Shown: positions 32,852 through 51,303 of the stretch, piece by piece
Numbering within the stretch: the first letter of the stretch is position 1
Layout of the letters: every line of letters starts with the position of its first letter
NCBI GenBank assembly: GCA_025454925.1
Contig: JALONM010000019.1
Location: 1-62,384, forward strand
Reading direction: 5' to 3'
DNA from: Cytophagaceae bacterium
Lineage (GTDB): Bacteria > Bacteroidota > Bacteroidia > Cytophagales > Cytophagaceae
Length of the DNA: 62,384 bases
Position numbers and translations under genes: made by a program
Notes under the pieces: generated by a model
What the model saw: the letters and a program-made list of their open reading frames with translations, nothing else
Database searches by the model: none
Told to the model about the DNA's origin: nothing

Positions 32852-33418
32852 ATGAAAAAAGTAATGTTATCGGCAGCTCTTGTATTGGCTGCATTTTCTT
32901 GCAAGAAAAAAGAAGAAGTAAAACCAGAAAATCCGGTAAATCCGAATGAAACAGAACTAATTACCACCTTGTTGTGGTCGTTCACCGAAGGCTCCAATGC
33001 TAGTGAATTCAAATTCAAAGATGTGGATGGTGAAGGAGGAAATGCCCCTACCATTGATACGATCCGTTTGAAAGCAAATACGACCTACACAACAGTGATT
33101 ACATTGCTGGATGAAACGAAAAATCCGGCAGATACCATTTCCAATGAGGTGATGGAAGAAGACGATGAGCATCAATTCTTTTTCGTTTCCAGTGAAATTG
33201 CCGGACTTACCATTTCTTATGAATCCTATGATGTAGATGCTAATAATGTACCTTTAGGAATTTTACCCAAAGTAGTTACAGGTAATACTACTGGAATCGG
33301 AAAAATTAAGGTGACCTTGAAACATCAGGCGGAGGACAAACCCAAAACCGGAAATGGAGACAGCTCTATTGGCGATACTGATATTGAGGTGACATTCCCG
33401 GTAAAAATCACCAATTAA
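32852..33418 (+). CDS. Lipoprotein paired with the TonB receptor
   Basis: 188 residues from ATG 32852, 16 nt after the receptor stop. The lipobox (MKKVMLSAALVLAAFSC) gives a lipidated cysteine at 17, followed by a charged KKKEE linker. The mature part is a beta-rich domain (ELITTLLWSFTEGSNASEF; LTISYESYDVD; IGKIKVTLKHQAED). The open frame extends to an ATG at 32756 inside the receptor, but only the 32852 start gives a signal sequence. Proteins of this type often sit beside TonB receptors; it may be a surface ligand-binding partner. No precise family named. Confidence 0.8.
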   Translation: MKKVMLSAALVLAAFSCKKKEEVKPENPVNPNETELITTLLWSFTEGSNASEFKFKDVDGEGGNAPTIDTIRLKANTTYTTVITLLDETKNPADTISNEVMEEDDEHQFFFVSSEIAGLTISYESYDVDANNVPLGILPKVVTGNTTGIGKIKVTLKHQAEDKPKTGNGDSSIGDTDIEVTFPVKITN

Positions 33419-33526
33419 ACCCCTAGAAGCGTACGATGGAGCAAGCGCATGGATCGCAGATCCATGGCAAGTAATCTCGTGATTTTATTGGTCGTTTTTC
33501 CATAGAAAAATTTCTATGGAGGTCCT

Positions 33527-33557
33527 AAAAAAGCAGCGTAAAACGCTGCTTTTTTTG
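33527..33557 (+). terminator. Terminator of the TonB receptor/lipoprotein operon
   Basis: 12-bp stem AAAAAAGCAGCG/CGCTGCTTTTTT (33527-33538 with 33544-33555), 5-nt loop, followed by further T. About 110 nt after the lipoprotein stop. Confidence 0.9.
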
Positions 33558-33564
33558 TGTCTTC

Positions 33565-33702
33565 AACCTTGGTGGTTGTGGAAATGATTTGATGAGCTGG
33601 TATAAAAAAATAATCCTAATAATATCCGTCTGATATTATTAGGACCCCAAACACTATGACTTATGAAAGCAACTAAATCTAAGTATATATACGGAGGGTT
33701 TT
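33565..33702 (+). repeat. Element A, copy 1
   Basis: Starts with AACCTTGGTGGTT and includes the 77-nt core (33604-33680) that is identical in all three copies: A-tract, 12-bp hairpin (33614-33644, loop CCGTCTG), CCCCAAACACT and the first codons of a short ORF. The unit repeats with a 169-nt period in copy 2. On the minus strand the hairpin is followed by a T-rich run and looks like a terminator. Confidence 0.85.
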
Positions 33703-33728
33703 GGTCTAAGGTTTTCCTGTTTTTATAA
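33663..33728 (+). other. Short ORF of element A copy 1 (21 residues)
   Basis: Begins MKATKSKYIYGGF and ends in a hydrophobic SKVFLFL tail. The first six codons lie in the invariant core. No ribosome-binding site or promoter is clear. It could be a translated peptide or an accident of the repeat. Confidence 0.3.
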
Positions 33729-33733
33729 AATTT

Positions 33734-33872
33734 AACCTTGGAGGTTGCGAAATTTATTTCCTGAGTTGGCATAAAAAAATAATCCTAATAATATCCGTCT
33801 GATATTATTAGGACCCCAAACACTATGACTTATGAAAGCAACTAAATCTGAATATATATACGGAGGGTTTTG
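33734..33872 (+). repeat. Element A, copy 2
   Basis: Same unit as copy 1, including the AACCTTGG flank (about 75 % identical there) and the invariant 77-nt core at 33773-33849; hairpin at 33783-33813. Similarity to copy 1 continues to the GGAGGGTTTT at ~33872, then stops. Confidence 0.85.
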
Positions 33873-33918
33873 TACCAGGGTTGTTCTTCTGCGCAAAAAA
33901 AACGAATTTATTTTTTAA
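33832..33918 (+). other. Short ORF of element A copy 2 (28 residues)
   Basis: Begins MKATKSEYIYGGF and ends in a different, basic tail (LLRKKNEFIF). Codon 7 is GAA here and GAG in copy 3, both glutamate. Coding status unproven. Confidence 0.3.
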
Positions 33919-33929
33919 ACCGGTATTTC

Positions 33930-34015
33930 CCCATCGTGCACTTCGCTTCTATTGAGAAAGCTTATGGATCCTAGATCGATAGCGGTAATCCCGACAAAGA
34001 AATTATAGGCTTCGG
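33930..34015 (-). repeat. Element B, inverted degenerate copy
   Basis: Read on the minus strand it contains GTCGGGATTACCG, the GATC-containing palindrome (ATCGATCTAGGATCCAT) and AAGCTTTCTC followed by AATAGAAGCGAAGTGCAC. The last part is the reverse of the loop found in the forward copy at 34337. Confidence 0.6.
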
Positions 34016-34039
34016 GAAAAAAATCTATGGAGAATTCCA

Positions 34040-34172
34040 TCTAAAACATGGCTAGTGTTGCGTGAGGGATAGAGTGTAAAGCCATGGCGCAATAAGCGCC
34101 ATGGCTTGCAGCGATAGCCCGGCCCGCCGTGGTGGTGGCGCCTGTGGCGCCACTCCGCCACAAGGGACACGC
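34040..34172 (-). repeat. Element C, GC-rich structured repeat
   Basis: On the minus strand: GGGCGTGTCCC, a GC-rich hairpin (GGCGCC arms at ~34137-34158), GGGCCGGGCTATCGCTGCAAG, a second hairpin CCATGGCGC-TTATT-GCGCCATGG (~34081-34104), then CTATCCCTCACGCAAC. Far richer in G+C than its surroundings. I recall similar sequence in intergenic DNA of many Bacteroidetes genomes, but cannot check that here. A shorter copy is at 51304-51362. Confidence 0.7.
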
Positions 34173-34336
34173 CCAACTTAAAATCTGGAGTTTGAATACT
34201 GGCTAAAGGCAATGCGATGGTTAGAGCTTTAGCTGCATAAAAAACGATTATCACGATCTTAACAATTAGGTTAATGATACCTATATGCCATAAAACCAGG
34301 GAATTGCCATAATTTTTGAGGGTATTGAAATAAAAT

Positions 34337-34530
34337 TAACCCTAATTTCTCCATAGAAATTCTTCTATTGAAAAACAACTACTAAAATCAAGGGCTTCAG
34401 ATGGTATCGAATAAAAGAAATTCTTTTCTAAGCCCATGATTTTCTAAGTCGGGATTACCGACCATGGATCTACGATCCATGAGCTTTCTCCATAGTGCGC
34501 TTCGCTTCTATCGAGAAAAGCCGGATTAAT
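34337..34530 (+). repeat. Element B, long forward copy
   Basis: About 150 nt (34337-34487) matching 51147-51293 at roughly 90 % identity, including AAAGAAATTCTTTTC, GTCGGGATTACCG and the palindrome CATGGATC-TAC-GATCCATG (34463-34481). It then carries TTTCTC...GAGAAA arms around a TGCGCTTCGCTT loop. Confidence 0.8.
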
Positions 34531-34573
34531 ATATGTTTGGCTGGCTGCGGATGGAATAAAACCTAAAAGCCTT

Positions 34574-34666
34574 AAAAAAAAATAATCCTAATAATATCCG
34601 TCTGATATTATTAGGACCCCAAACACTATGACTTATGAAAGCAACTAAATCTGAGTATATAAACGG
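34574..34666 (+). repeat. Element A, copy 3
   Basis: Holds the invariant 77-nt core (34576-34652; hairpin 34586-34616) but lacks the AACCTTGG flank; similarity ends at GTATATA. It lies ~230 nt past the rsmI stop in the orientation where its hairpin plus T-rich run could end rsmI transcripts. Confidence 0.85.
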
Positions 34667-34694
34667 CACAAGGAAACATAGGGTTACGTTTTAA
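34635..34694 (+). other. Short ORF of element A copy 3 (19 residues)
   Basis: MKATKSEYINGTRKHRVTF and stop. Same first nine residues as copy 2, then a different tail. Coding status unproven. Confidence 0.3.
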
Positions 34695-34744
34695 CCCGGA
34701 TTTTAAAAAGATTTTTTTTGGGGGAGCCTGTACATTACAATGCC

Positions 34745-34821
34745 AGGATTAGCGTTGATGGATATGCGATCCATGAATGTTTTGTTCTTATGGCTGCGTG
34801 TTTAGTGAGAAAAGCAGGTTT
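34745..34821 (+). repeat. Element B, degenerate forward copy
   Basis: GGATTAGCG followed by ATGGAT-ATGCG-ATCCAT (34758-34774) and, 40 nt later, GAGAAAAGCAGG. Order and spacing match the copy at 34337, but the sequence is decayed. Confidence 0.5.
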
Positions 34822-34892: not shown

Positions 34893-35579
34893 CTACTGTT
34901 TCAATCCTGAAACGACTACAACAAATTCCCCTTTGGGTTCATGTTGTATAAAATGTGCGAGTACTTCTTCTACAGATCCTCGAACGGTTTGTTCAAATTT
35001 TTTTGTCAGCTCTCGCGATACGGAAATGTAACGTTCTGCACCGCCCTCTTCTTTCAGTTGCTCCAACAGTTTGATCATACGATGTGGAGATTCGTAAAGC
35101 ACGGTTGTGTATTCCGATTGAAGAATAAATCGAACGGCTGTTTGCCTGCCCTTTTTATGGGGTAAAAAGCCATAGAAGAAAAATTGATCGCAGGGTAAGC
35201 CTGAGTTGACCAGGGCTGGCACGAAGGCGGTGGCTCCGGGAAGGCTTTCTACGGAAATGCCTGCCTGTATGCAGGCGCGAACCAACAAAAATCCAGGATC
35301 GGAAATGCCGGGGGTACCGGCATCGGTAACCAAGGCGAAGTGTTCCCCTTGTTTCAACCTGTTTACGAGAGAAGCTAGTACAGCATGCTCGTTGTGGGCA
35401 TGGTAACTTTGCAAAGGTGTTTTAATCTGAAAATGTTCCAGCAGCGAACGGCTGGTGCGAGTATCTTCGGCCAAAATGAGGTCTACCTGTTTAAGCACCT
35501 GAAGCGCTCTCAACGTAATGTCATCGAGATTTCCGATGGGTGTTGGAACTAAAACAAGAGATGCAGAAAAGGAAGACAT
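34893..35579 (-). CDS. rsmI: 16S rRNA 2'-O-ribose C1402 methyltransferase
   Basis: 228-residue SAM-dependent tetrapyrrole-methylase-fold enzyme that 2'-O-methylates C1402 of 16S rRNA. Signatures are LVLVPTPIGNLDDITLRAL at 7-25, LAEDTRTSRSLLEHF, VTDAGTPGISDPG and YESPHRMIKLLEQL. It lacks the extra C-terminal domain of E. coli RsmI (286 residues), as in many Bacteroidetes. Downstream of the pterin dehydratase gene by 30 nt, likely one transcript. Confidence 0.95.
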   Translation of the reverse strand: MSSFSASLVLVPTPIGNLDDITLRALQVLKQVDLILAEDTRTSRSLLEHFQIKTPLQSYHAHNEHAVLASLVNRLKQGEHFALVTDAGTPGISDPGFLLVRACIQAGISVESLPGATAFVPALVNSGLPCDQFFFYGFLPHKKGRQTAVRFILQSEYTTVLYESPHRMIKLLEQLKEEGGAERYISVSRELTKKFEQTVRGSVEEVLAHFIQHEPKGEFVVVVSGLKQ

Positions 35580-51095: not shown

Positions 51096-51146
51096 AGCTT
51101 CATTGGGGAATCGTACGCAGGAATTATTTTACCCGGATGTTTCAAC

Positions 51147-51293
51147 CCTAATTTGTCAATAGAAATTCTTCTATTGACAAACGACTAATAAAATCAAAGG
51201 CTTGAGAAGGAATCGAATAAAAGAAATTCTTTTCTAAGCCCATGATTTTCTAAGTCGGGATTACCGGCCATGGATCTACGATCCATGAGCTTT
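51147..51293 (+). repeat. Element B, copy near ilvD
   Basis: About 90 % identical to 34337-34487, with the perfect hairpin CAATAGAA-ATTC-TTCTATTG at its start (51158-51177) and the palindrome CATGGATC-TAC-GATCCATG (51269-51287). Similarity ends abruptly at TTTCTCC, where element C sequence begins. Confidence 0.8.
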
Positions 51294-51303
51294 CTCCCGC
51301 CGC

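Follow-up and report, generated by a model that had tools for sequence, protein, structure and literature searches.

Three tandem units with an identical core in a Cytophagaceae genome are predicted minus-strand small RNA genes with a putative ECF-type promoter

Analyzing a 62,384-nt stretch of DNA from a Cytophagaceae bacterium (the window), we identified three direct copies of an invariant 77-nt core, and we consider it likely that each is an independent small RNA (sRNA) gene on the minus strand, with a predicted promoter of the ECF-sigma type, a 77-nt transcript and an intrinsic terminator. Transcription of these units, their start site and their sigma factor are all inferred from sequence features. 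Small regulatory RNAs are a common kind of bacterial regulator; to our knowledge they are little known in Bacteroidota beyond Bacteroides and a few flavobacteria, and the sequence of these units matched no RNA family searched, with zero Rfam matches at gathering score in the whole window. If the prediction is right, a tandem sRNA with a recognizable ECF-type promoter would provide a direct handle on an envelope-stress or type IX secretion regulon in Cytophagales.

Extent and copy number of the repeated cores

The three cores are located at positions 33604-33680 (copy 1), 33773-33849 (copy 2) and 34576-34652 (copy 3), forming a single cluster with the same orientation throughout. The cluster lies between two convergent genes, a lipoprotein-like gene (plus strand, ending at 33418) and rsmI (minus strand, 34893-35579), the latter name being a reading of the sequence for which the backing is conserved matches to the same protein. 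An initial annotation of this DNA described the cores as identical over 77 nt and their flanks as either about 75% identical or unrelated, and our comparison confirmed both statements: identity extends over exactly 77 nt, the bases adjoining the cores differ between copies, and across the 80 non-core positions of the 157-nt family, copies 1 and 2 agree at 62, copies 1 and 3 at 33, and copies 2 and 3 at 32, with flank identity of the three copies ranging from 40 to 78%. A 29-nt piece of the core, allowing up to three mismatches, matched three times in the window vs no matches in 100 dinucleotide shuffles. The search for further copies in the same genome (4,523,365 bases in 135 contigs), which had been proposed with the annotation, recovered only these three by BLAST, the three other matches being palindromic stems on the other strand; a covariance model returned the three copies, three reverse-read stem matches and two weak matches (19.4 and 18.7 bits).

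A strong plus-strand terminator (a 13-bp stem with a T-run) is also present behind the lipoprotein-like gene, at 33527-33555.

Minus-strand terminators and promoter-like elements

Each core contains a hairpin, which was annotated as a 12-bp stem with the loop CCGTCTG and which folding and a terminator scan showed to be a 13-bp stem with a 5-nt loop, TCCTAATAATATC-AGACG-GATATTATTAGGA. These stems, at 33614-33644, 33783-33813 and 34586-34616 on the minus strand, are directly followed by TTATTTTTTT on that strand only, and the scan at the three hairpins gave three minus-strand terminator-like sites and none on the plus strand. In a genome sample of 862,384 nt, made up of the window and 40 stretches of the same genome, 67 of 642 gene ends had a terminator-like site whose stem scored 10 or more, compared with 0 in shuffled sequence; the stems of the units score 13 and have the same form as these gene-end terminators, as an sRNA gene with an intrinsic terminator would.

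Upstream of each core on the minus strand, we identified a predicted ECF-like promoter consisting of AAC, a 17-nt spacer and a hexamer: in copy 1 at 33688-33713 (AAC at 33713-33711, CGTATA at 33693-33688), in copy 2 at 33857-33882 (CGTATA) and in copy 3 at 34660-34685 (CGTTTA). All three copies therefore contain AAC-N17-CGTWTA, and AACC and CCGT are invariant blocks in an upstream sequence that diverges elsewhere. In every copy, the identical 77 nt begin 7 nt past the hexamer and finish in the T-run, and since the identity extends from just past the promoter-like element to the T-run, the core coincides with a predicted 77-nt RNA. By three-copy identity and the terminator scan, the predicted sRNA of copy 1 would run from a 5′ end at 33680 to a 3′ U-run at 33604, with its counterparts at 33773-33849 and 34576-34652, also on the minus strand. 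This predicted RNA, a segment of which is AGAUUUAGUUGCUUUCAUAAGUC, starts with AGAUUUAGUUGCUUUCAUAAGUCAUAGUGUUUGGGG, is mostly unpaired in its 5′ part, and carries the AU-rich intrinsic terminator at its 3′ end. One point against the sRNA reading concerns copy 3, where the hairpin could end rsmI read-through, because the minus-strand rsmI gene lies upstream of this copy.

Gene conversion could keep the cores alike, and a local tandem triplication maintained in this way, with no function, is an alternative that we consider improbable. The presence of the three copies at one locus only is consistent with it, as are the dispersed repeats around them, which show that the region gathers repeats. 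However, gene conversion alone does not predict tract limits at the T-run and just past the promoter-like element in all three copies, nor the retention of promoter elements separated by a divergent spacer. The initial annotation had named, as what would refute it, a core confined to these three copies, lacking transcript and translation, and explained by one recent local duplication; the copy number agrees with this, but local duplication alone leaves the promoter-to-terminator limits of the identity unexplained.

A putative ECF-sigma regulon

Searching upstream of 313 sampled genes for AAC-N-CGTWW, we found 8 forward and 3 reverse occurrences with a spacer of 16 nt and 9 forward and 2 reverse with a spacer of 17 nt, vs 1 to 5 forward for each of the eight other spacers within 12-21 (mean 2.9 forward and 3.5 reverse). 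AAC-N16/17-CGTWW is over-represented upstream of genes in this genome. The narrower TAACC-N15-CGTWTA, whose spacing differs by one base from that in the window, showed no enrichment (4 matches vs 18 in the control). A longer form of the promoter with spacers of 16-18 nt occurs at 11 places in the sample, one of them 90 nt upstream of rsmI, and we ran Pfam on the proteins downstream of 7 of the 11, the place upstream of rsmI being among those left out. Two of these proteins are Band_7 proteins, one contains OmpA, PD40 and TPR domains, one contains kinase, AAA and SpoIIE domains, one is a GH8 protein with a Por_Secre_tail match of 26.9 bits (cut-off 27), one is a beta-helix protein with a weaker tail match, and one had no match. 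Genes with AAC-N16/17-CGTWW upstream include, for example, L241:11688-12680, L251:17430-18338 and L258:12776-15172.

The genome has clear vegetative TANNTTTG boxes (94 forward, 37 reverse, 33 shuffled). Near the units, a scan allowing up to one mismatch found no 6-of-6 TANNTTTG box on either strand; the best boxes there match at 5 of 6 positions with no matching -33 element, and thus do not constitute a sigmaABfr promoter.

The passages of PMC9723704 that describe SM6 of Flavobacterium psychrophilum give a CGT box at -10, read as ECF-type, and list among the selected genes two Band 7 proteins, type IX secretion system (T9SS) components, a TPR protein, an ECF sigma/anti-sigma pair and the putative RNA Rfp11. 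The CGTATA, CGTATA and CGTTTA hexamers of our units resemble this CGT box, SM6 being compared by its description only in that source (PMC9723704). The genes with AAC-N16/17-CGTWW upstream, including those for the two Band_7 proteins and the OmpA/PD40/TPR protein, probably represent an ECF-sigma regulon resembling SM6, and by analogy the shared gene list is a suggestive parallel for an ECF-type promoter.

Plus-strand reading of the units

The plus strand of each unit contains a short open reading frame (ORF) starting MKATKS, at 33663-33728 in copy 1, and translation of the three copies yielded peptides of 21, 28 and 19 residues with differing tails, as originally annotated. The start codon of these ORFs falls in the antisense of the predicted RNA, and translations of the three copies did not show the conservation of the frame beyond the start that would be expected of a small-peptide family. 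Given the unconserved tails and the failure to find a good plus-strand promoter, we regard the MKATKS peptide as probably an antisense reading of the 5′ part of the predicted sRNA. An opposite-strand terminator and promoter can make an RNA gene resemble a peptide gene in this way.

The alternative that these are plus-strand genes for short peptides, with the hairpin and CCCCAAACACTATGACTT forming a leader and MKATKS... being translated, has in our estimation little chance of being correct. The ATG is kept in all three copies and in the SKYG76 site described below (MKTTLLK...), and at 29 of 72 genome loci with the motif TTTCATAAGTN{0,4}ATAGTGTT, many in Bacteroidota, an ATG ORF of 100 aa or more lies antisense to it, so that real genes can follow a sequence of this kind. 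Against this, the three peptides, of 21, 28 and 19 residues, have unrelated tails, only on the minus strand does a T-run follow the hairpin, no 6-of-6 TANNTTTG box occurs on the plus strand near the units, and across 19 family genomes the leader pattern AAACNCTATNNCTTATGAAA, with 2 mismatches, was in no excess over its reversed control.

A type I toxin-antitoxin array, in which the plus-strand peptides would be toxins and the minus-strand RNA a cis antisense antitoxin, is highly improbable: tandem arrays do occur in type I toxin-antitoxin systems, and a short ORF and an opposed RNA overlap here by construction, but the peptide tails, expected to carry a toxic hydrophobic segment, are unconserved, and no plus-strand promoter box was found near the units.

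A minus-strand frame, ...DLVAFISHSVWGPNNIRRILLGLFF... (33563-33896), is open through all three units despite their differing flanks; we provisionally rejected it as a coding gene, as no shared start codon was seen.

Searches in other genomes

A mobile cassette is unlikely as an explanation of the units because it would have copies elsewhere, and a small mobile or site-specific recombination element, suggested by the palindrome and by the dispersed repeats A and B nearby, is barely probable at all, given that there is no copy elsewhere in the same genome, that the search of other genomes proposed in the initial annotation found the unit in 0 of 97 by BLAST, that phage records gave no match and plasmids a single one at E = 1, and that the 21-nt core pattern was absent from viral contigs. 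Exact 25-nt and 21-nt patterns of the core had no match in either genome_contigs or viral_contigs. From the three options originally raised for the repeats, i.e., a cassette, a family of peptide genes or an RNA, the RNA has the best support, although it would be encoded on the strand not used by the ORF, with the cassette and the peptides disfavored.

Using a covariance model built from the three copies only (R1), we searched 19 family genomes and found one further site, in genome G003, with 38.7 bits and an E of 2.5e-4 for that genome. This site, single copy in G003 by BLAST, is the same locus as one on contig JANWYS010000032.1 of Cytophagaceae bacterium SKYG76. It is the only locus with an R1 score above 21 bits among the 72 from a pattern scan of genome_contigs, and it is one of the 72 by construction, because the pattern was designed with that locus in view. 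The stem differs from that of the units in its letters but still pairs and precedes a U-run. Both UUUCAUAAGU and AUAGUGUUU are retained, set apart by 2 inserted nt, and upstream is AACCCT-CGTTAA with a spacer of 16 nt (AAC-N16-CGTTAA). The 84 nt upstream of the SKYG76 stem score 17 against the units, vs a maximum of 15 in 132,774 windows of the units' own genome. A bias-corrected profile of the three promoters and 5′ parts gave the SKYG76 site 9.8 bits and an E of only 1.2, below chance-like loci, so the proposed relationship rests on sequence and terminator combined. In the sequence examined there is no upstream minus-strand ORF of at least 100 aa for the SKYG76 terminator to serve; a plus-strand ORF (402-2519) is located downstream of the site, and no minus-strand ORF of 120 aa or more intervenes. 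We regard this site as a probable single-copy relative of the units, for which sequence taken by itself argues weakly.

A second model, R2, built from four sequences, was searched in 390 genomes of the order, 10 of which had a match at E ≤0.05, about the chance expectation at that threshold. Leaving aside the window genome and G003, nine loci remain, all of which we rejected as background: L064, L065, L066, L071 and L072 are directly behind a gene on the same strand, L069 overlaps a gene start, L070 falls within an ORF, and next to L067 and L068 there is no ORF of 90 aa or more. A third model (R3), of the promoter and 5′ part, gave matches in 229 of the 390 genomes at E ≤0.5; apart from G000 and G003, the top score was 22.0 bits, vs 60.1 for G003, which was in the training set of R3. 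We detected rsmI at E ≤0.001 in 18 of 19 genomes searched, and the ORFs adjoining it differ across the 16 listed loci, so there is no shared interval for a comparison of synteny.

Proposed function

Should the three units be sRNA genes as predicted, their tandem arrangement means that one stress or envelope signal would yield a triple dose of one identical RNA. This RNA would act in trans, its 5′ part pairing with the start-codon regions of mRNAs, chiefly those of secreted or outer-membrane proteins, and blocking their translation as the FopS sRNAs do in Bacteroides. The predicted 5′ part contains UUUCAU, the complement of AUGAAA, and its antisense therefore resembles the start of an ORF; an sRNA that covers AUGAAA starts would account for the resemblance of the antisense strand to the beginning of a secreted protein. 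We offer as a tentative proposal, more doubtful than probable, that this triplicated Cytophagales sRNA is the RNA arm of an ECF-sigma regulon of type IX secretion and Band-7 genes, silencing AUGAAA starts under envelope stress. The sigmaE-dependent sRNAs of Pseudomonadota would then have a counterpart in another phylum.

Our tests of start-codon complementarity against dinucleotide shuffles showed no excess, either for 10-mers (4 of 613 start regions vs a shuffle mean of 2.08) or for 8-mers (35 vs 28.8), and duplexes at start regions were energetically no more favorable than those within coding regions. Across the genome, 19 near-matches to 15 nt were counted in addition to the three copies, vs 24 in the control. 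Individual target candidates include the start of a 302-codon lipoprotein ORF in stretch L211, with AAACACTTTTTAACTTATGAAA, and secreted-protein starts in stretches L234, L236 and L250.

Comparison with known systems

Multicopy sRNAs include LhrC of Listeria, and LhrC (Rfam RF00616) gave a weak chance match on the plus strand at copy 3, with 22.4 bits vs a gathering score of 110. Among the PMC papers listed by our literature searches on multicopy or ECF-driven sRNAs in Bacteroidota, none showed a tandem array of this kind. A close likeness within the phylum is to FopS of Bacteroides thetaiotaomicron, which the cited parts of PMC11697453 describe as multicopy paralogous sRNAs, with 14 members, partial similarity to GibS and canonical sigmaABfr promoters, that repress by pairing near susC-like start codons. 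FopS and the predicted RNA of our units share a multicopy nature and a layout of an unpaired 5′ part followed by a terminator, as far as that description extends (PMC11697453), whereas our units are three identical tandem copies with an ECF-like promoter. FopS was found neither among Rfam matches at gathering score nor among the 20 matches up to E 10 (FopS deposition being as stated in those parts of PMC11697453). In the sections cited from PMC9045159, the NsiR1 array of Nostoc comprises 12 copies of about 60 nt with a DIF1 promoter motif, and is partly antisense to hetF. It resembles our units in its tandem copies, several of them identical, each with its own promoter, which in our units is a putative one, and differs in being cyanobacterial, in having 12 copies and in its DIF1 motif (PMC9045159). 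Rfp11 of F. psychrophilum is similar as a putative regulatory RNA behind a CGT-box ECF-type promoter in a Band 7/T9SS regulon; it is not described as tandem in the passages concerned, and the comparison is by description only (PMC9723704).

Dispersed repeats between the units

The spacer between copies 2 and 3 consists largely of two repeats, A and B, found elsewhere in the same genome; 40 of 333 candidates were scored for the intergenic spacer query, and these matched. Repeat A is a non-coding sequence of about 194 nt at 34336-34529 (plus strand), outside the predicted sRNA genes, and is also present at 51144-51297, with remnants at 33426-33521, 33915-34024 and 34706-34821. The 862,384-nt sample contains 18 matches to it of at least 150 nt, with a mean identity of 84.5% among those below 100%. 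Of 17 placed copies, 8 are between convergent genes and 1 is between divergent genes, the background being 98 and 94, respectively, of 521 intergenic gaps. Repeat B, at 34046-34260 (plus strand), contains GC-rich palindromes (GCCATGGCGC...GCGCCATGGC) and has 16 matches in the same sample, often near repeat A.
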